From a virus, in IMG/VR virus record IMGVR_UViG_3300012209_000017, positions 1-31,418 of that record: a DNA stretch of 31,418 nucleotides; one strand, given 5' to 3'. Within the stretch, counting starts at the first letter, position 1. Each line of letters opens with the position of its first letter. The position numbers and the translations under genes were made by a program. Shown here piece by piece: positions 2,588 through 13,256 of this stretch. The notes beneath the pieces were generated by a model. It was not told the origin of the DNA, did not search any database, and saw only the letters and a program-made list of their open reading frames with translations.

Positions 2588-2712
2588 GCGGACAGCTCGA
2601 AGTTATCCTCGGCGCCATTGCCACTGTAGTGTTTATTGGCGTATGGCTTTTGAATAAGTACGTGACAAGGTCCAAACAGTCGGCAGTGGTTCCCAAGATG
2701 TTGGTGAAGTAG
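2584..2712 (+). CDS. Small single-pass membrane protein, 42 aa, unknown function
   Basis: ATG at 2584 overlaps the terL stop (ATGA), and the stop at 2710-2712 overlaps the next GTG start (TAGTG), so the ORF is coupled on both sides. That supports a real gene despite its size. The peptide has one hydrophobic stretch at about residues 6-23 (VILGAIATVVFIGVWLL) followed by a basic, polar tail, which predicts a single transmembrane helix with a positively charged C-terminal side. I do not recognise it. Its length would allow a holin- or antiholin-like or membrane-anchoring role, but nothing in the sequence decides this. Confidence 0.6.
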   Translation: MSGQLEVILGAIATVVFIGVWLLNKYVTRSKQSAVVPKMLVK

Positions 2713-3206
2713 TGCAACCGCTCGTCCAACTCGAGAAATGGGCTATTGGCTTTGTCACCGAGGAACAGCTTGGGAATAAGCCGGCCTGGTGCGGCGGATG
2801 CACGATGCTTTACTCCAAGCAAGGCCGTTGCCAAATTCTTGGACCTAGCATCATCATTTCTCCTCTCGACCTGAATGGCAAAAAGTATACGCCGGTTTGC
2901 AGTCAGCAAGAACCAGGCAAGCCGATGGACGTGGATGACAAGCATGTCATGTACGCCTCGTCTCTTCTTGGTTCAGAGAAGGCCGACGAAATTGGACTCG
3001 AATGGGCGGAAGGCACTGGAACGAACTGCGGCGGTGAGTTTGGCGCAGCGATTTGCACGAAGCATTTCACGCCGACCGAAGGCGATAAGGGTATGTGCAG
3101 GCCTTTGCAAGCGGAAGTTGACCGAGGCGATTGCTGCGCTGCTCACAATGGGCCTTCGATGGAGTGGCGTATGGCGCAAGCTGAGCTTAGAAGGGCAAGT
3201 CTCTAA
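2712..3206 (+). CDS. Cysteine-rich protein, unknown function
   Basis: The start is GTG at 2712, overlapping the preceding stop; the stop overlaps the next ATG (TAATG). The 164-aa protein has nine cysteines, at residues 27, 30, 40, 63, 106, 115, 129, 141 and 142. The first four form C-x2-C-x9-C-x22-C with an RCQILGP segment. This resembles small HiPIP-like iron-sulfur or zinc-binding segments in some phage proteins, but the spacing is not diagnostic. The second group lies in TNCGGEFGAAIC, a MC, and GDCC. No signal peptide or membrane helix is visible. A metal- or Fe-S-binding protein is the likeliest reading; disulfide stabilisation of a virion protein is an alternative. Function is not known. 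Confidence 0.75.
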   Translation: MQPLVQLEKWAIGFVTEEQLGNKPAWCGGCTMLYSKQGRCQILGPSIIISPLDLNGKKYTPVCSQQEPGKPMDVDDKHVMYASSLLGSEKADEIGLEWAEGTGTNCGGEFGAAICTKHFTPTEGDKGMCRPLQAEVDRGDCCAAHNGPSMEWRMAQAELRRASL

Positions 3207-3466
3207 TGGCTATCTCCGGACCTTATCTCGGACGCGTGCGTGTCGTGGGTAGTGCGCCAGCAGGGCTCAAGGACCCTTATCTGGGTTCAGTAACTGTGAT
3301 AGGCGGTGCTCCCGCAGGAGAGCCCAATCCTTATCTTGGCCAGGTACGCCAAGTCTTTGCGGCGCCAACAGGAGATTTGAATCCAAGTTTAGGGACGGTG
3401 GTTGTCATTGGTTCGGCGCCGGCGGGCGTGCCTGACCCATATCTCGGAAATATTTTAGAGGTATAA
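3206..3466 (+). CDS. Protein built of 18-residue tandem repeats, unknown function
   Basis: This 86-aa protein is almost entirely repeat. After a five-residue leader there are four 18-residue units and a partial fifth. The consensus is P-Y-L-G-x-V-x-V-[IV]-G-x-A-P-A-G-x-x-[DN]; unit 2 reads [18 protein letters not shown]. Alternating hydrophobic residues with G/P turns suggest a short beta-solenoid or fibrous trimer; that is inference. ATG 3206 overlaps the upstream stop. The next gene encodes a collagen-like protein, so this is probably part of a fibre or decoration set. There is no signal peptide and no cysteine. I know no function for this repeat family. Confidence 0.8.
3221..3463 (+). repeat. 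54-bp coding tandem repeat (18-residue unit, 4.5 copies)
   Basis: Units are at 3221-3274, 3275-3328, 3329-3382, 3383-3436 and a partial 3437-3463. The amino-acid pattern PYLG...APAG is kept while the DNA has diverged, so the repeat is under protein-level selection and is not a recent slippage expansion. Confidence 0.85.
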
Positions 3467-3470
3467 GGAA

Positions 3471-4208
3471 TTGGCTGAATTCCATTCCGTCAAACGACTT
3501 CCTAGCAGAGGAATTCCTGGCGATGCGTACTTTGACCAGAACGCACAGATAATCTACATCGCAGTTGGTTCAGGCATACTGGTTGACCTTTCAAGCCTGC
3601 TTACTCCACTGCATCCTATTGCAGTTGGGCCAAGCGGACCACCTGGGCCGCAAGGTCAGGAAGGACGCGGACCGCAAGGCCTTCCAGGTCGAGATGGAAC
3701 AAATGGAAAGGATTCTATTGTTCCGGGACCTAAAGGCGATACAGTAGTTGGTCCTCCAGGACCTCCGGGACCGCAAGGTTATGCAGGACGAGATTCAACT
3801 AGTCAGGGACCGCGGGGACTGAAAGGCGACACAGGTTCTCAAGGTGAGACCGGACCACAAGGTCCGCAGGGTGCGCAAGGATTGACCGGCTTACGCGGAC
3901 CAATCGGAACGATGGGTATGCCTGGAGAGCGTGGCGAAAAGGGTGACAAAGGCGAACCAGGAGAATGCGGTGAAAAGGGTGACAAAGGCGAACCTGGGAA
4001 AAATGGAGCGCCAGGCCCACGCGGCGAGCTCATGGTCATCGGCGCGGAAGAGGTTAGGGTCGCAGCAGAAGAACTAAGAAAGACGAAATTACGATTGCAA
4101 GCAATCCTAAAAAGACAAACACTCGAACTTTCCGGATTGCCGAGCGTTATCGCTAACGTGTTGCGAGCAGATATACAAGAATTAGAAAGAGAAATTGGCA
4201 ATGAGTAA
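3471..4208 (+). CDS. Collagen-like protein with C-terminal coiled coil (putative virion fibre)
   Basis: The 245-aa protein has three parts. Residues 1-52 are a short N-terminal domain ([19 protein letters not shown]) of a type seen at the base of phage fibres. Residues about 53-185 are interrupted Gly-X-Y collagen repeats rich in GPP, GPQ, GEK and GDK. Residues about 192-222 are a charged amphipathic helix likely to be a coiled coil. Collagen stretches with a flanking coiled coil form trimeric rods, so a virion surface fibre is likely. The start is TTG at 3471, the only start codon after the in-frame stop at 3456, with GAGG (3458-3461) nine bases upstream. The stop overlaps the next gene's ATG by 8 bases. 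Position between terminase and portal argues for a head rather than a tail fibre, by inference. Confidence 0.88.
3933..3994 (+). repeat. Near-perfect direct repeat in the collagen-like region
   Basis: A 26-base segment at 3933-3958 recurs at 3969-3994 with one mismatch and a 36-base period. It encodes GEKGDKGEP twice. It is recent compared with the other Gly-X-Y units and could vary in length by recombination. Confidence 0.85.
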
Positions 4209-6306
4209 TAAGACACCAAATCTTGGTTTATATCTTCGCGGCCCATTATCGTGGGAGTCTCTAGTTCAGGGCGCGGCCAATCAGTGGGACCTTGACCTCA
4301 ATATGGCAATCATCGATACCGCTTTTGCAGGCGGTCTCAGCGGCACGACATGGTACACTGGAACAAGCAATCCGAGCTCCATTCCTGGCTCGGTCAACGG
4401 TTCGTTTTATCTTAATACTTCTAACGGTTCCGTTTGGCGTTTGGAGTCCGGTACTTGGGTAAATCGAGGAGCACTTCCCACCGCTCCAATTCTAGGAATC
4501 CCCAATCTTGGACAGATTCCTATAGGGCAAGGAGACGGAACATCTGTCTTTGCGGACCCACTCGTTCAAGGAATTCAAGCTGAAGGAACGACCGCGGCCA
4601 CAGTTAACCCAGTTTTGGTTGGTGGTAAGGATGGAAGTGGAAATCTAAAAGATTTGATTCTTGATTCGTCTGGCCGACCAACAGTCAATGTGAACGGAAC
4701 TGTTCCAGTCTCAGCCGCATCCTTGCCCTTGCCGACGAACGCTGCTCAGGAGACGAGCGGCAATCTAGCGACACTTGCTGGCGCTGTGGCTAGTACCAAA
4801 ATGAAAGTATCTGCCGCTGTAGGCGACGTGATTGTGGAAGTATCCGATGGAACAAACATTTTAGGAACGACTGTCCATCCTGTAAAAGTCGACCCAACAG
4901 GAACCACAACTCAACCTATTTCAGGAACTGTTGCCCAAGGAACGGCAGCGACAGGAACCGCAGGTTGGCCAATAACTCAAGGAAACGTTGCCGCGATAAC
5001 AGCGGCTTGGACGTCAGCAACTGGTGCCAATGCGGCTCTTTCATCCGCACTCATAGGGTATCAAACTGTAGTTCTTTCTCTTAACGTGTCAGGAAGTATC
5101 ACGGGTGGTGTGCTGACCTTCGAAGTTTCCGATGACAACGGGACTACTTGGTATCCAATATTGGCATACCGTTCAGGCATTGCTGTGGGAGACTCGACAG
5201 TCACATTGTCTGTGGCCGGCAGTATTTTGTGGCAGGTTAACGTAACTGGTTTTACGAATTTCAGAACGAGATTAAGTTCGGTTATTATAGGAACTGGCAC
5301 AGCGTCATTACGGCAGCAAGCGTCAAGTGGAAATCAAACATCGCCTAGCACGAATATAGCTGCTATTGGTGGAAACGCAGTTTTACCACAGCTAGTAGGA
5401 GCTTTGCCGGTAACAATCAAAGGCGGCAACGCGGGCTTTTCACTTGAAGACACCAACGGCGTTCTTAATGAAAATTTGAAGAACATTGCGAATAGTGCCG
5501 TCGTGACAGCCGCAGCCGGAGTTCAAAAAGTGGGCGTAGTTGGTGCAACTGGCACCGCGCTTGATGGAACCACAGCGGGTGTTGTGGACGAGAACGTGAA
5601 AAACGTTGGTGGCAGCGCGGTTGTTACAGCCGCCGCAGGCGTACAAAAGGTTGGTGTGGTTGGCAACACAGGCACATCTCTTGAAACAACTGCGGGCACC
5701 CTCGATGAAAATATCAAGAACGTTGGCAATTCTGCTGTCGCAACCGCTGCCGCGGGTGTTCAAAAGGTTGGAATAGTTGGTAGCGCGGGAGCCACTGTAG
5801 ACGGTGTCATTACCGCTGCTGCGGCGCCGGCGAACGCTGTCGCTCAATTAGTCGTGAACAACACAACGCCTCCATCCCTGGCAACGGGACAGTCAGTAGC
5901 GGCACAGTGCGATTACGAAGGTAGTTTATTCGTTAAGCCGATTCGTCGCGCGCAGACAACGTCCAAGGCTACTACGATTACGAACAGTGCGGCGGCAACC
6001 ACCGTTTTAGGCGCGCAAGCAGCCGGTATTTTTGCTGACATAAGTAATTTGATTATCACAGTTGTTCCGGCAGCGACAGCAGACATAGCATTCACCGCTA
6101 CACTTTCGGACGGAACGAATAGCTATATCTTTGATATGGATACGGGTGCTTTAGCAACAGCAACCGCTGACCCAACTCAGATAAATGTGAATTTTAATCC
6201 GCCACTCCCGGCTACCGCGGCGGCAACGGCATGGACGATTACTTTGAGTGTTAGCACTGTAACTGTTCATATCACAGTTGTTGCCGTTCTTCAAAAAGCG
6301 AGTTAA
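4201..6306 (+). CDS. Large repeat-containing fibre-like virion protein
   Basis: The 701-aa protein is rich in Ala, Gly, Thr and Val and poor in Cys and charged residues, as is usual for beta-rich fibres. Residues 1-95 form an N-terminal module ([15 protein letters not shown]..., [18 protein letters not shown]) typical of phage fibre bases. The middle carries a beta-sandwich-like segment ([11 protein letters not shown]) and then nearly three copies of a 40-residue repeat containing GVQKVGVVG and DEN-x-KNV. The C-terminal ~100 residues are a beta-rich domain. ATG 4201 is preferred over the in-frame TTG at 4195 because it overlaps the upstream stop in the style of this operon. It probably acts with the collagen-like protein as a head fibre or decoration; receptor or glycan binding is possible but not shown. 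Confidence 0.8.
5470..5805 (+). repeat. 117-120 bp coding tandem repeat (about 40 residues, ~2.8 copies)
   Basis: Units begin at 5470 (120 bp), 5590 (117 bp) and 5707 (partial). Each encodes DEN/NEN-x-KN, SAV[11 protein letters not shown][VI]VG and a variable GT-rich tail. The one-codon length difference and many silent changes indicate an old duplication. Confidence 0.8.
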
Positions 6307-6347
6307 TGGGCTGTAACACTTTCAAAGAAAAGATGAGGAGTACTCGA

Positions 6348-6698
6348 ATGTCAAATTTCTCTTTCAACAAAGCTGGTTCACAGGCCACGCGCGAATCGTT
6401 TGACGTTGTAATGGACAAAATCAAGACAGCGCGGTCCTTGGTCTACACTGTCACGGCATCAGACATCACGAACAAGTATTCGGCCATGATTCCTTTGAAC
6501 TGGGACTCGGCGTATGCAGACACAAATTACACTGTGTCACTCGGCATTGAAGCTGTCAACGTCGCGAACATTTCAAAGGACGGCTACGCTGTCGCTCGGT
6601 TCACCAAGACTAGTGCCAGCTTGGGCGTGGTGTTGTCCATTCCAAATGGAACTGCTGGCGATACGGTTCTCTTGCACGGACTCGCAATTCACGATTAA
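6348..6698 (+). CDS. Small beta-rich protein, unknown function
   Basis: The frame opens at ATG 6306, overlapping the fibre stop, but ATG 6348 is favoured: it has a strong GAGGAG site at 6335-6340 seven bases upstream and gives a 116-aa protein beginning MSNFSFNKAG. The upstream 14 codons look unstructured. The sequence is mainly alternating hydrophobic and polar residues, with NWDSAYADTNYTVSLGIE resembling beta strands and no cysteines. Hydrophobic stretches are too short for membrane helices. It closes the accessory block before the portal gene and may be a decoration or fibre-partner protein. I do not recognise a family. Confidence 0.7.
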   Translation: MSNFSFNKAGSQATRESFDVVMDKIKTARSLVYTVTASDITNKYSAMIPLNWDSAYADTNYTVSLGIEAVNVANISKDGYAVARFTKTSASLGVVLSIPNGTAGDTVLLHGLAIHD

Positions 6699-6746: not shown

Positions 6747-8657
6747 ATGGCTAACTTCCTGGACAAGGTGTTCGGGCGGTTTGGACTAGAGCAACGTGGA
6801 GGGTCGGTGGGCGCCGAACGGCGCAACTCGCTCGAGAATCCACAGACACCTCTTTCCTTCCCCGCCGAATGGATGCTAGACGCTTGGAACGGTTCTCGAA
6901 CCGATTCTGGAATTCGCGTCAGCGAAATGACAGCGTTGCAGGTCTCGACGCTGTTCCAGTGCGTCACCATCATTGCTAACGGCATCACATGCCCGCTGAA
7001 CGTGTATGAGCGTTTGATAGAAGACGGTCAAGTTGGCAAACGCATTGCTTACAAGCATCCTCTGTTCCAATTCCTCAACATACGTCCTAATCCTGAGATG
7101 ACGTCCGCCACTTGGCGGCGAACAATGCAATGTCATAAGCTGCTTTGGGGCAATGCCTATTCCGAGGTTGAATACGATGGCGCGAATCGCGTCAAGGCTA
7201 TCTGGCCGCGCAATCCAGCGCGAACGCGTCCCGTTCGTCTCACTGAGGGCATCACGTTCCAAGGAACCTTCTACAAAGCCGGTACGATGGTTTATGAGAC
7301 TTTCGACCCGATGGGCGAGTCTCAAATCATCTACGAAGATAATAACAATCAGCAGTATGGGTTTCGGCGCATCGTTCTTCCTGAGGACATGATTCATCTT
7401 GTCGGCTTGTCACTCGATGGCCGCATAGGTGCTGATGTGATTTCGCTTGGTCGACAGGCTATCGGCTTGGCGCTCGCAACAGAGAAGTACGGTGCAAAGT
7501 TCTTCGGCAACGGTGCCGTTCCAAATGGACTCCTGAGCGTTCCTGGTGATATGACTGACGTCCAGTGGGAGACTCTCAAGCGTTCATGGTCTGAGGCACA
7601 CGGTGGCGAGAACGCGCACAAGACTGGTGTCCTGCCTCCAGGCGTGACGTACACCAAGACTGGTGCCTCACCATCAGAAGGCCAGATGCTCGAAACGCGG
7701 CAGCATCAACGGCTTGAGGTTGCTGGCATCTTTAATGTGCCTGGCCACATGGTTGGTGTCGTCTCGAATGATGCCGGCAAGTCCACTGTGGAACAAAGCG
7801 CCATTGAGTTCAAGCTCTTCTGCCTTGACCCACATATCAATGATTGGGAACAGGAAATGGCGTGGAAGTTGTTCCCGCAGGTTGGCCAGTCCGCAAACAA
7901 ATATTATGCTGGCTTTGACACGCGCAAGCTCATGTATCCTGATGCCGCCAGCAGAGCAACCCTTTACGGGTCTGGTAAGCAATGGGGCTATTTGAACACA
8001 GACGAGATTCACGAGCTCGAAGGCATGAATCCTGCGATGGACGGAAGTGGGAAGAAATATTGGATGCCGCAAAACATGATAGATGCTGCCGCTGCAAATG
8101 CCCACAGTGACGCAGTAACTGAAGGCCTCAAGAACGGTACGCTGGCTGCTACGCCGGAGAATGTCACGCCAGTTGGAAATCATCAAATTAAGAAGGACGA
8201 GAAGTCTGCCGTAAAGGCGGAGCAAAGCCTCGACCTCCAGAAACATGAATTGACGACAAAGGCCTCAGTTGCCATTGCTAAGCATAACGCGAGCAAACCG
8301 CAGGATGGAGGAGATGGCCAACAGCCGGTAAAGGGTCAAAAGACTGCGCAAGCGAAAAAGAAAGCCGCAAAACGTGATAAGTCGCAGTCCGTCTTCGCCG
8401 GGATGTATCGTGACGCATGTGGCCGTGCATCACATCGAAACAAGGCCACAAAGAACGACTACCTAACCATCTTCGCGCCGGTCCTGTCGGCCATGATTGA
8501 GATGATTCACGATGAAGAGCGTGTAAATGCCGGCCCGTTCATTGACGCGTATTTGTCGGACCTTTTTGAACGTCGAAATGGTAATTGGGAGAGTGGCGCG
8601 CTGGACGCTATTGCGACTGTTGAATTTGATGAGCTACTTGAGGCGATGCTCCAATGA
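6747..8657 (+). CDS. Portal protein, HK97 family, with long C-terminal extension
   Basis: The portal forms the dodecameric ring at one capsid vertex through which DNA passes and to which the neck attaches. Residues about 1-445 match the HK97 portal family: VSTLFQCVTIIANGI near residue 70, HPLFQFLNIRPNPEMTS near 104-120, LLWGNAYSEVEYD near 132-144, QRLEVAGIFNVPGHMVG near 321-337 and LNTDEIHELEGMNP near 416-429. HK97 portals are usually about 400-450 aa, so the last ~190 residues are extra. They comprise a Lys/Ala/Gln-rich linker (about 480-548) and a helical domain (about 548-636). A GGAG site sits at 6732-6735. The stop overlaps the next start as ATGA. The extension could act in assembly or internal scaffolding; its role is unknown. 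Confidence 0.95.
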   Translation: MANFLDKVFGRFGLEQRGGSVGAERRNSLENPQTPLSFPAEWMLDAWNGSRTDSGIRVSEMTALQVSTLFQCVTIIANGITCPLNVYERLIEDGQVGKRIAYKHPLFQFLNIRPNPEMTSATWRRTMQCHKLLWGNAYSEVEYDGANRVKAIWPRNPARTRPVRLTEGITFQGTFYKAGTMVYETFDPMGESQIIYEDNNNQQYGFRRIVLPEDMIHLVGLSLDGRIGADVISLGRQAIGLALATEKYGAKFFGNGAVPNGLLSVPGDMTDVQWETLKRSWSEAHGGENAHKTGVLPPGVTYTKTGASPSEGQMLETRQHQRLEVAGIFNVPGHMVGVVSNDAGKSTVEQSAIEFKLFCLDPHINDWEQEMAWKLFPQVGQSANKYYAGFDTRKLMYPDAASRATLYGSGKQWGYLNTDEIHELEGMNPAMDGSGKKYWMPQNMIDAAAANAHSDAVTEGLKNGTLAATPENVTPVGNHQIKKDEKSAVKAEQSLDLQKHELTTKASVAIAKHNASKPQDGGDGQQPVKGQKTAQAKKKAAKRDKSQSVFAGMYRDACGRASHRNKATKNDYLTIFAPVLSAMIEMIHDEERVNAGPFIDAYLSDLFERRNGNWESGALDAIATVEFDELLEAMLQ

Positions 8658-9649
8658 TACGCACACTAGAATTCAGAAAGCGCGTCCGCGCTGAGCAACC
8701 AACTATCACGATGAATCCCGATGAGCTCTTGCTCATTTTTATCAGGCATGGAATCACTTCTGAGGACCTGGAGAATAGGTACTGTGGCTGGCGAGATTCC
8801 GATATGGTTGAAGAAGGACGTGCGGAGATGCGTGCTGCCAGAACCGTCATCTCCTCAGTTCCTTGCGGCCCATTCTATACCGATGACCTCTCAAGAACTA
8901 GTGAGGCTGCCGGTATTCTTGCGGAAGATGCGGCCAAGCCTGAAGTTGTCGTTTTACGAGGACTTCGGCCTTGGGGAGTTGGAACTAAACTTTCAGGCCA
9001 GATTAAGACCAAAAGTCTCGAACGCCTGGTCGAATGGTATGTTGCCAATCCCAATGTGGTTCCTGAGGGAGACGAAGCTGAATCAATTAACGAGAGCATT
9101 GTTCGTTGGAACTCCGCGTTCAGTTATGTTCTATCCCAGACAAAGCCCGGAATCGCAAGCGTGATTTCATGCCATTCAAATGCACACAAGATTCTTCGTC
9201 AACAATTCCTTGGCCAAAAATATAAAGGCAACGGGAAAGCGCAGAAGTTCAAGCTAGGCCACGGCGGCGTGATGACGTTCAGATTGCGAAAAGATGGTAA
9301 CGCTAACATCGGTATCATTGCGCAGGGCCGACTTGAGGACAGCGAGCGCGCGACTATTAGGATTGCTGAACTTAGGTCTGTGTTCAAGCGCCAAGTGGAA
9401 ATAAGTCCTGATTTTATAAAGCTATGCAATCAAATTGTTGTTCTCAAATATGACGACCCAAAACGGCGCGAAATCCTTTTGGCAATGGGTCAACTTCTTG
9501 GAATTCCAAATCTGCCAGAAGCTGACGTGATGTCAGTCATTGGAACGATGGGAATCACCCATGTTGATGGTCAGATATACATGGGCGAAATAGAGGACCT
9601 GCTGACTGACCTCAAGCTCAATCCGTCAGAGAAATCTCCACTGAAATAA
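8654..9649 (+). CDS. Histidine phosphatase superfamily (phosphoglycerate mutase-like) protein with C-terminal extension
   Basis: Members of this fold form a phosphohistidine and hydrolyse or transfer phosphate. The catalytic elements are visible: IFIRHG with R31 and H32, SRTSEAAG with R81, an acidic segment PEGDEAES at 137-144, and the second histidine H174 in ISCHSNAHKIL. LRPWGVGTKLSGQ at 104-116 fits a branch of the fold I associate with phages. Residues about 230-331 are an extra helical C-terminal part I do not recognise. ATG 8654 overlaps the portal stop. It lies between portal and prohead protease, so it is co-expressed with the head genes. The substrate is unknown; removal of phosphate from a nucleotide, sugar or protein is possible. 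Misassignment of the fold is unlikely. Confidence 0.88.
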   Translation: MIRTLEFRKRVRAEQPTITMNPDELLLIFIRHGITSEDLENRYCGWRDSDMVEEGRAEMRAARTVISSVPCGPFYTDDLSRTSEAAGILAEDAAKPEVVVLRGLRPWGVGTKLSGQIKTKSLERLVEWYVANPNVVPEGDEAESINESIVRWNSAFSYVLSQTKPGIASVISCHSNAHKILRQQFLGQKYKGNGKAQKFKLGHGGVMTFRLRKDGNANIGIIAQGRLEDSERATIRIAELRSVFKRQVEISPDFIKLCNQIVVLKYDDPKRREILLAMGQLLGIPNLPEADVMSVIGTMGITHVDGQIYMGEIEDLLTDLKLNPSEKSPLK

Positions 9650-9729: not shown

Positions 9730-11796
9730 ATGTCTCTCTCACCACGAGAAATTCGTTACGTTGCTGCTACGGACGTCCGCGCTATGGGCGGAACTGGCGA
9801 TAGTGACCCTCTTCGACTCGAGGGGTACGCATCGGTATTCAATTCTCTTGCCAAACTTCCTGGATTCCGTGAGCAGATTAAGCCAGGAGCCTTCAAGCGT
9901 GCGATTGAACAGCGCATGGACGTTGTAGCTCTCTGGAATCATAATGATGATATCGTTCTTGGCCGGACAACTTCCGGCACCCTCCGCCTCAATCAGGACT
10001 CTCGTGGCCTGCACTATACCATCGACCTTCCCAACACGCAAACGGCCCGCGATATCCACGAATCAGTTCGGCGCGGCGACATCAATGGCAGTTCATTCGC
10101 CTTCAATGTTCCCGAAGGTGGGCAGGACTGGTCTGAGCAGCGTGATGCGGATGGGACATTCTATGTCCAGCGCGATATCAACGATGTAAACTTGCTTGAC
10201 GTCTCACCGGTAACGCATCCTGCCTATCAGGGTACCGAAGTTTATGCTCGCGACATGGAAGGGCTCGTTCCGACAGAGCTACGTTCTGCGGTTGACGCGA
10301 AGAACGCGGCCGCCCAAGTGCCTGTCATCGTTCCTCCGGCCATTGAGAAGAGACCGTACTCGAGCGTTGATGAAGTTCCGGACAGTGTTCCAGCGGCTCA
10401 CAAGGCCCAATGGATGGAAGTTTGGAACAATGTTTACAAGAAGGCACTGGCTAACGGTTCTTCGAAAGAAGATGCGGAGGCCGCGGCCTTCAAGCAAGCG
10501 AATGGCGTTGTGAAGAAAGCCAAAGCGCGGTCCGTGCGAGAGCAAATAGAAGTTCGAGGCGTGGAGAACAAGCGCGAGATGGATTCGCTTGAGGACACGA
10601 TAAAAGAAGTTTGTCTGGCGCTGGCAGCGGCTTTTCCACGCGCCGCGAATGGTGTTCAGACATCCGCGCCAGCTCCTATGATGGATGGCCGGTTCTACGA
10701 GATGGAGACCTTCCAAGATGAGGAAGGTGATGGCTACGTCATCGTCGGCGATTACACGACTGGTGAATACTTCTCAATCACGTTCAATCACGACGAAAGC
10801 AAAGACGAAGGGAACGAAATCACTTTTGGTGAACCTCAGTCGGTTGAAAAAGAATGGGTCCCAAGTGACCGCACGGCAAAGCGTCTTGCCGAACAACGTG
10901 ATATGGTTGAGCGCGATGATGAAGAGGATGAGGAAGACGACCTCGACGACGATTTTGACATGGCCTACAAAGGCCGCGCCTATCGTGATGGCGAAGAGCA
11001 TGAAGACCACGAAGACGGTGGAATGTGTGAAGAAGCAGGTTGCATCTGCCAAAATCGTTGGGCGCCTTCCGGCAGCGGTTATCGTAGCACCGACTACGTT
11101 GGCGAGCTTATGTTCGTCGGACTCTTCGATGAACAGCGCGGTGGTATGGCGCGAACAAAGCGGGTAGGTGGCAAAGATTTGACGGCCAAGTCGTTCGCTT
11201 TCGTGGGCGACCCAAATCGTACCGAGACTTGGAAATATCCGATTCACGATGCTGTCCACGCCCGATTGGCTCTGTCACGTTGGGGCCAGCATAAGGGTAT
11301 TCCTTCTGATAAGGAAGCTGGCGTGTACCGAAAGATTGTGGCTGCCGCCAAAAAGTTTGGTATCAAGGTTAGCGAGGAAAAGTCGTGGCCTATCATGGCC
11401 GAAGAGCGAAAGGCTTTTGCTGACCGGCTTGCGAAGGCAATGCGATATTCCGACGACCAACCGCGCGACGAGAAGGGTCGATTCGGGGAAGGTACGGGCG
11501 AGAAATCAAAATCAAGCGAAGAGCACCAAATCTCTTCTCGTGAACATGCCAGTGCGGCGGCCGGTCATCGTCTTGCGGCTCAAGACCATGCAAATCAAGC
11601 TCAAGAGGCTGCAAAAGCAGGAGATACCCAGAAGGAATCTGCTCACGACCACGCCGAGGCGGCGCATCTGGCGGCCGCTCAAGCTCATACGGCTGCGGCA
11701 AGCGCGCACATGACAGGCTCGAAAGCTGCAAACGCATCATCCCGAATTGCGAATCACGCATCGGCTGTAGCCAACAAGATGAGTGACCGAGCGTAA
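9730..11796 (+). CDS. HK97-family prohead protease fused to ChaB-like and other domains
   Basis: Residues about 8-180 are the S78 prohead protease that cleaves scaffold and capsid delta domains during maturation: LEGYASVFN (30-38), catalytic His in ALWNHN (H71), catalytic Ser in INGSSFAF (S121 or S122) and DVSPVTHPAYQGT (157-169). The rest of the 688 aa is fused. About 208-268 is a ChaB-like domain (PYSSVDEVPDSVP...). About 320-378 is a beta-rich domain ending VTFGxP-like (EITFGEPQSV). About 395-410 is very acidic (ERDDEEDEEDDLDDDFD). C433, C438 and C440 form a small cluster. About 480-548 contains KYPIHDAVHARLALSRWGQ, a DUF6582-like domain. PRDEKGRFGEG sits at 579-589, followed by an Ala/His-rich coiled coil. 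The extensions are probably scaffold-like. AAAGGA at 9714-9719 precedes the start. Confidence 0.9.
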   Translation: MSLSPREIRYVAATDVRAMGGTGDSDPLRLEGYASVFNSLAKLPGFREQIKPGAFKRAIEQRMDVVALWNHNDDIVLGRTTSGTLRLNQDSRGLHYTIDLPNTQTARDIHESVRRGDINGSSFAFNVPEGGQDWSEQRDADGTFYVQRDINDVNLLDVSPVTHPAYQGTEVYARDMEGLVPTELRSAVDAKNAAAQVPVIVPPAIEKRPYSSVDEVPDSVPAAHKAQWMEVWNNVYKKALANGSSKEDAEAAAFKQANGVVKKAKARSVREQIEVRGVENKREMDSLEDTIKEVCLALAAAFPRAANGVQTSAPAPMMDGRFYEMETFQDEEGDGYVIVGDYTTGEYFSITFNHDESKDEGNEITFGEPQSVEKEWVPSDRTAKRLAEQRDMVERDDEEDEEDDLDDDFDMAYKGRAYRDGEEHEDHEDGGMCEEAGCICQNRWAPSGSGYRSTDYVGELMFVGLFDEQRGGMARTKRVGGKDLTAKSFAFVGDPNRTETWKYPIHDAVHARLALSRWGQHKGIPSDKEAGVYRKIVAAAKKFGIKVSEEKSWPIMAEERKAFADRLAKAMRYSDDQPRDEKGRFGEGTGEKSKSSEEHQISSREHASAAAGHRLAAQDHANQAQEAAKAGDTQKESAHDHAEAAHLAAAQAHTAAASAHMTGSKAANASSRIANHASAVANKMSDRA

Positions 11797-11906
11797 CACG
11801 GTTCAAAAAGATTTCGGACTATACAAGGCGTGTGGCCCGATACGCAGTAATCTCACAGTTGAGTAGCACGAACCAAACTCATCGTGAGCTTGAAAAGGAC
11901 AATACC

Positions 11907-13256
11907 ATGTCTCGTCTCAAAGAGCTGAGGGAGCAACGGGCTAAGGCACACGCCGCGGCCGTCGAGTTCCTGAAAGCGGAAACACAAACCGCGGAAACGC
12001 GTGCGTCAGCCGACAAGGCTCTCGCGGAAGTTGATTCACTCGCTGCGGACATTGTTCGCATTGAGAAAGCCGATGCGATTGCGGCTGAGCTTCGCGCTCA
12101 GGGTGTCAATCCCGGCACACAGCCCATCAACGGCGCTCCCGTCAACCCGGAAACACTGGCGAAGGAATATCGCCAGGCTTTTATGGTGGCGTTGCGCAAG
12201 ATGCCTGCCGGCTACGGATTCGGTCCGGATGCCACGCAGCGTGTCGCTTCCGAACAGTTGCCCGAGAAAATCAGCCAAGTGCTGTCTCGCGGCGTTCAGT
12301 TCGAAAAAGAACAGCGCGATGGCCAGGTTGAAGGCAACCTGTTGGCACACATCGGCACGTACACTGGCCTTGGGTTTTTCGTTCCCACGGGCTTTGTGAA
12401 CGCAATCGAACAGGCAACCAAGTATTTCGCTCCTCTTCTGGATGGCTCCGTCATCACCGTGATGGACACTGCAACGGGTCAACCGCTGCCCTTTCCGACG
12501 AGCAATGACACGACTCAGGCTGCGACCATCGTTGGCGAAGCAAACACTGTCAACGAGCAGGACGTGACCGCGAGCCAAATCAACTTCGGCGCATACAAGT
12601 TCACTTCTGGGCTTGTGAAGTGCTCCTTGGAATTGCTCCAAGACAGCGCGTTTGACCTCGAAGCATGGCTCATTCAACGATTTGCAGAGCGTTGGGGCCG
12701 TGGATTGGAAGCCTTCCTGACGACCGGAACCGGTTCTAGCCAGCCAACAGGCTTGCTGACCGCCATCGCGTCTTCGGGTATCTCACCTGTTGTCGCCGCG
12801 GGTTCTTCGGAATCCACCGGTGGCAGCCAGACCGGTGTGAACAGCATCGGCTACTCCGACCTCGTCAACCTGGAGCACAGCGTCGACCCAAGCTACCGTC
12901 GTGGCGCAAAGTATATGTTCCATGACCAGACGTTGAGCGCCATCAAGCGCATCATCGACAAATTTGGCCGTCCGTTGTGGGCTCCCGGAATCACCGCTGG
13001 CGACCCGGACCGCATCAACGGCTACGAGTATGTCATCAACCAGTCCATGCCACAGATTGCCTCCTCGGCGACGACTGTGGTCTTCGGCAGCCTCAAGAAG
13101 TACATTGCGCGACGCGTCAAGGATCTGTCCGTGATGAAGCTCGTTGAGCGGTATGCTGAACTCGGTCAGGTTGCATTCGTGAGCTTTGCTCGCTTGGATG
13201 CCAACCTGATTGATGCCGGAACCCATCCGTGCAACGTTCTTCAGCAACACTCGTAA
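11907..13256 (+). CDS. Major capsid protein, HK97 fold
   Basis: This is the shell subunit. Residues about 1-64 are a charged helical delta domain (MSRLKELREQRAKAHAAAVE...) that acts as internal scaffold and is normally removed by the prohead protease encoded just upstream. Conserved family features follow: TGLGFFVPTGFVNAI near 153-167, TGQPLPFPTSNDTTQA, and KFTSGLVKCSLELLQDS. ATG 11907 has AAAAGGA (11893-11899) seven bases upstream. A longer form from GTG 11832 would add 25 residues that do not fit the delta domain and lacks a good site. The protein is 449 aa. A hairpin follows the stop. The family assignment is secure; I did not fix the delta-domain cleavage site. Confidence 0.95.
   Translation: MSRLKELREQRAKAHAAAVEFLKAETQTAETRASADKALAEVDSLAADIVRIEKADAIAAELRAQGVNPGTQPINGAPVNPETLAKEYRQAFMVALRKMPAGYGFGPDATQRVASEQLPEKISQVLSRGVQFEKEQRDGQVEGNLLAHIGTYTGLGFFVPTGFVNAIEQATKYFAPLLDGSVITVMDTATGQPLPFPTSNDTTQAATIVGEANTVNEQDVTASQINFGAYKFTSGLVKCSLELLQDSAFDLEAWLIQRFAERWGRGLEAFLTTGTGSSQPTGLLTAIASSGISPVVAAGSSESTGGSQTGVNSIGYSDLVNLEHSVDPSYRRGAKYMFHDQTLSAIKRIIDKFGRPLWAPGITAGDPDRINGYEYVINQSMPQIASSATTVVFGSLKKYIARRVKDLSVMKLVERYAELGQVAFVSFARLDANLIDAGTHPCNVLQQHS

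Follow-up and report, generated by a model that had tools for sequence, protein, structure and literature searches.

Several enzyme-type domains, among them PBECR, 2H, inorganic pyrophosphatase, Nudix and ART, are fused to portal or MuF proteins of phages, and it has been proposed that they are packaged and injected (PMC5512222, Iyer et al. 2017; PMC9503650). The text of PMC5512222 nowhere uses the word "phosphatase", and no fusion of a histidine phosphatase to a portal was found in the literature searched. Among the cellular histidine phosphatases, SixA of E. coli acts on phosphohistidine (PMC7948535).

The DNA analysed here (the window) is an IMG/VR virus record from an uncultured virus, 31,418 bases long, that contains a complete head operon. 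A histidine phosphatase gene lies directly behind its portal gene. By analogy, this arrangement appears to fit the already described class of portal/MuF-fused effectors (polyvalent proteins), with a new domain. Features in common are i) an enzyme-type domain at or beside the portal C-terminus in a head-gene context; and ii) the swapping of domains among related phages, with ParB/Srx-, JAB- and ART-type domains nearby. Unlike the known examples, the domain here is a histidine phosphatase, and the cargo is a small single-domain protein rather than a large multi-domain one.

The phosphatase gene of the window

The head-operon genes of the window given here are on the plus strand. The head operon begins with the terminase large subunit, TerL (638-2587; PF03354 and PF20441). 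The 636 aa portal protein (6747-8657) is of the HK97 type (PF04860, 1.9e-83), with fold matches to the HK97 portals 8fql and 8cez. It is followed by the 331 aa histidine phosphatase (8654-9649), an S78 prohead protease with a long C-terminal extension (9730-11796; PF04586, 8.1e-46) and an HK97-fold major capsid protein (11832-13256; PF05065, 6.8e-52). The phosphatase has an ATG start that lies inside the portal stop, CAATGATA, i.e., an ATGA overlap, and 80 nt separate its end from the protease gene. The first-pass annotation had placed a histidine phosphatase with an intact active site between portal and protease and had described it as translationally coupled to the portal; the open reading frame, Pfam match, active-site residues, gene order and stop/start overlap all agree with it.

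The TerL-portal interval of the window is ~4.1 kb and holds tail-fibre/collagen-like genes (2712-6698). In the related contigs L044 and L122 the same spacing is only about 100-185 bases, so the window head operon looks like one into which fibre genes were inserted.

The phosphatase has the branch-1 His_Phos fold. It matches PF00300 (His_Phos_1) over aa 27-215 with an E-value of 4e-19 and 69.5 bits, against a curated cut-off of 21.7, and it matches PHROG 12933 at 4.6e-7. Two related phage copies match the same PHROG at 1.3e-19 (L047) and 7.5e-18 (L209); the library gives this family no function or neighbourhood. Scores against the named NCBIfam equivalogs are far under all cut-offs, the best being CobC with 37 bits against 162.9. 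AlphaFold, given an alignment of 17 sequences, modelled ~aa 21-180 with confidence, the block pLDDT values there being mostly 80-93. The model matched 298 PDB chains at E<=0.001, and the best 50 of the 298 are of the phosphoglycerate-mutase/CobC/PhoE type. The agreement in fold and residues is far beyond chance.

The second His and the general acid are catalytic residues of the histidine phosphatase superfamily, together with the RHG motif and a second Arg. In the window copy the RHG motif is Arg31-His32-Gly33 (8744-8752), the second Arg is Arg81 (8894-8896) and the second His is His174 (9173-9175). All four superfamily residues (R31, H32, R81 and H174) are in place, and this copy is probably catalytic, as judged from its residues. 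Where CobC and GpmB have their general-acid Glu, the window copy has Pro106 (8969-8971), and SixA also has Pro there. The phage copies resemble SixA in having RHG, the second Arg (present also in CobC and GpmB) and the second His with no Glu at the general-acid position; they differ from it by a longer GGES/E143 insert, by low identity and by the loss of the second His in many copies. With the CobC/PhoE/phosphoglycerate mutase enzymes of branch 1 they have in common the fold, the core residues and E143, but they have no general-acid Glu and fall below every NCBIfam equivalog cut-off. Because the active site is SixA-like and has no general acid, substrates whose leaving group departs easily, phosphohistidine for example, would be favoured.

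The C-terminal extension of ~100 residues (aa 226-331; 9329-9646) was modelled mostly at low confidence (pLDDT mostly 31-75). No relative of it was found among the 18,132 ORFs of the related loci, and it appears to be unique to the window phosphatase. An earlier suggestion that these residues are a docking part is unsupported; they are window-only sequence, and a short N-terminal leader is all that the protein has in common with a gene in the neighbouring slot of a relative.

Portal fusions and linkage to the head genes

Single-protein scans of viral contigs with the window phosphatase and with the window portal found no relatives; portal and TerL alignments were therefore used as queries. The related portal clade was gathered by these portal and TerL searches together with a portal-clade DNA pattern. 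A scan with a two-sequence alignment of the window and L122 phosphatases also found no relatives. Matches to records of isolated phages (Listeria, Enterococcus and similar unannotated contigs) were set aside as bacterial-looking DNA, judged by record type.

In 13 related IMG/VR contigs (L046, L047, L052, L055, L073, L210, L211, L212, L213, L256, L266, L279 and L283, of which L073, L212 and L213 are near-copies) the portal protein carries the His_Phos domain as a C-terminal fusion. The fused ORFs are 711-851 aa long, with the portal domain N-terminal. A separate phosphatase gene is present in four contigs and lies clearly in the head module in three of them: between portal and protease in the window; likewise in L122, with one intervening gene; and after the connector in L051. 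In the fourth, L209, it lies by eye upstream of scaffold- and capsid-like genes; portal and terminase were not found on that contig. The relatives thus form a natural series from a separate gene to a full portal fusion.

A PF00300 search of the whole phosphatase-bearing records, up to 49 kb long, found one phosphatase site per record. Apart from L208, a second copy of the L051 contig, none of 168 loci whose portals are partial or more distant contains a phosphatase. In the portal tree (its row set included near-copies) the phosphatase is patchy and occurs in at least three separated groups. The near relatives L043 and L044 have no phosphatase, the portal gene being followed directly by the protease gene. 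The first-pass annotation had named a scattered gene with no link to head genes as the outcome that would count against it; the 13 fusions and the single site per record reject that case. The same two observations give strong, though indirect, support to its suggestion that the protein may be packaged.

The catalytic residues are unevenly conserved across the 17 phage copies. None of the 17 lacks the RHG His or the second Arg, and 16 have the RHG Arg, which is lost in L122; the RHG Gly or Arg is altered in L052, L122 and L279. The general-acid position holds Pro, Ser, Thr or Ala in every copy. Six copies (the window, L052, L055, L122, L256 and L279) clearly retain the second His, two (L047 and L051) probably retain it in a shifted form, and the remaining nine have lost it, with Arg in its place in seven, Leu in L210 and Ser in L209. 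These counts follow the motif as printed in the alignment, since the automatic H174 column is off by one residue for several rows (e.g., VTSHN in L055 and ITSHK in L279). Diverged pairs, the Arg group included, have dN/dS values of 0.11-0.27 over the phosphatase domain, which are rough because dS is high. The domain is under purifying selection, even where the second His has become Arg.

With 9 of the 17 copies lacking the second His, one cannot take phosphatase activity to be conserved across the family, and with the RHG Arg also lost in L122, many copies may not be phosphatases. From the residues, catalysis does not appear to be the conserved property of this phage family. Loss of the RHG/His residues in most homologues had been given as a further outcome that would refute the first reading, and only half of it was found: the RHG His is retained in every copy and the RHG Arg in all but one, and the second His is lost in nine.

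Other occupants of the slot and a recurrent motif

Other conflict-type domains occur in the place of the phosphatase or beside it. The portal core closest to that of the window (72 percent) is in L290, where the portal stop is overlapped (TAATG) by a 150 aa ParB-like gene (ParBc_2, 7e-4, below the curated cut-off). In L050 a JAB-like domain is at the portal C-terminus (Prok-JAB, 3.4e-4, likewise below the cut-off). An ADP-ribosyltransferase exoenzyme-type gene (L047:7686-8306; PF03496, 1.7e-9) comes immediately after the portal-phosphatase fusion of L047.

An N-terminal leader of the pattern M-(x)-R-x-L-x-F-[KR] begins one gene in each of three phages: MIRTLEFR in the window phosphatase (8654-8677), MRKLVFK in the L122 phosphatase and MRALEFK in the ParB-like protein of L290. 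Only these three distinct genes carry it among the 18,132 ORFs; the leader is suggestive only, being short and matched with a pattern derived from these very genes. A second motif, (R[YF]S[ED])DQPRDxxG[KR]F, precedes or lies within cargo-like ORFs and also occurs in protease extensions and in one portal. In the window it reads DQPRDEKGRF and lies in the C-terminal extension of the protease (11455-11484). Sites in related phages are in L047:7686-8306, L050, L051:1642-2772, L073:8822-9634 and L309, the last with an insert of unknown type. DQPRDxxGKF gave 27 matches in the related loci and 0 in shuffled ORFs; it is a candidate capsid-targeting or protease site, and with the common leader it may supply capsid-targeting signals.

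A small Cys-rich domain (CxxC ... DxDDCC) is N-terminal of the phosphatase in L209:698-1552 and is encoded in L122 by the gene preceding the phosphatase (10952-11509). L003, at one time taken as a phosphatase-less contig, was dropped: it stops ~60 bases past the portal, and the next start (MALVQIERGV...) resembles the pre-phosphatase gene of L122.

Proposed role and rival explanations

We would give an even chance to the reading that the phosphatase is a swappable portal-associated virion effector, unfused in the window, which is delivered and acts on the host. In this clade of uncultured HK97-portal tailed phages the domain, placed on or right behind the portal protein, would fill a swappable cargo slot at the portal C-terminus. 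It would be made in step with the portal and enter the procapsid with it, by way of the fusion in relatives and perhaps of the short N-terminal leader in the window; because the gene is separate there, we infer the association of the window phosphatase with the portal. The C-terminal crown of the portal faces the capsid interior, and the HK97-like portal fold would put the phosphatase on that side. Least certain is the last step, in which the protein would be delivered with the DNA and would dephosphorylate a host target early in infection. Since portal rings remain part of the virion, a domain fused to one could be injected only after being cut off, and delivery of the fused forms would require the prohead protease to make that cut. 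In favour of the effector reading are the 13 fusions, the single phosphatase site per record, the other domains that alternate with it in the slot, the purifying selection and the published domains fused to portal or MuF proteins. Against it are the copies that have lost catalytic residues, the phages L043 and L044, which do without the phosphatase, and L051, in which the gene comes after the connector instead.

Should virions contain the protein, the phage would have phosphatase chemistry on hand from the first moments of infection, and the head-cargo slot of this clade would be a place to seek host-take-over or counter-defence proteins. The histidine phosphatase would in any case join the short list of enzyme-type domains that ride on portals. 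A more specific version, which we regard as rather improbable, has one portal slot filled in turn by histidine phosphatase, ParB-like, JAB-like or ART-like domains and marked by the leader and a DQPRDxxGKF cargo tag. The SixA-like phosphatase would then be injected to shut off a host phosphorelay, PTS or nucleoside diphosphate kinase step, and the copies without the second His would be binders of phospho-ligands.

The main rival, which we consider unlikely, keeps the enzyme tethered at the portal and never delivers it; its work would be done during assembly or on the portal, where it might remove phosphohistidine from portal or neck proteins. We know of no phosphohistidine in these phages, and this speaks against such a task, as do the absence of the gene from the closest relatives, the several copies that appear inactive and the alternative slot domains, which have no such role. 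The fusion to the portal in relatives is what a tethered enzyme would look like, however, and its active site, like that of the phosphohistidine phosphatase SixA, is missing the acid. It also counts in favour of this rival that in the archaeal tailed virus HFTV1 the portal channel is lined by putative phosphohistidines (PMC12494034).

No more probable than the tethered enzyme, and no less, is a domain that has given up catalysis: a phosphate-binding fold that now serves the portal crown in a structural or DNA-contacting capacity, with the window active site a leftover by descent. The replacement of the second His by Arg, Leu or Ser, with purifying selection persisting in the Arg group, and the changed RHG residues of L052, L122 and L279 are readily explained in this way. 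Less easily explained are His32, Arg81 and the second His occurring together in the window and five others, and probably in two more; the RHG His and second Arg of all 17 copies, which go beyond the need of phosphate binding alone; and the fact that close relatives dispense with the gene. Capture by chance of a host metabolic gene (cobC/PGAM-like) that has nothing to do with the virion is very unlikely on the linkage data. The fold and the nearest solved structures are those of ordinary cellular phosphatases, and no close kin of the gene turned up among isolated phage records, which both speak for such a capture; against it are the repeated fusion and linkage to head genes, a best NCBIfam score far under any equivalog cut-off, and a gene family common to other phages of the clade.

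As to hosts, 396 genomes from the phylum of L123 (Terriglobia) and 29 from that of L122 were searched, and in each set the starting genome alone was returned. L122 (CABMCB010000040.1), a close relative of the window phage, is in a MAG labelled uncultured archaeon, which may reflect either the host or bin contamination. In L051, L073, L210, L212 and L213 two tandem capsid-like genes follow the protease, one about 21-28 percent and the other about 47-54 percent identical to the window capsid. Near the L281 portal, at the contig end, an integrase gene is present (L334; G039:C1:1-1113), and it suggests a temperate lifestyle in the clade.
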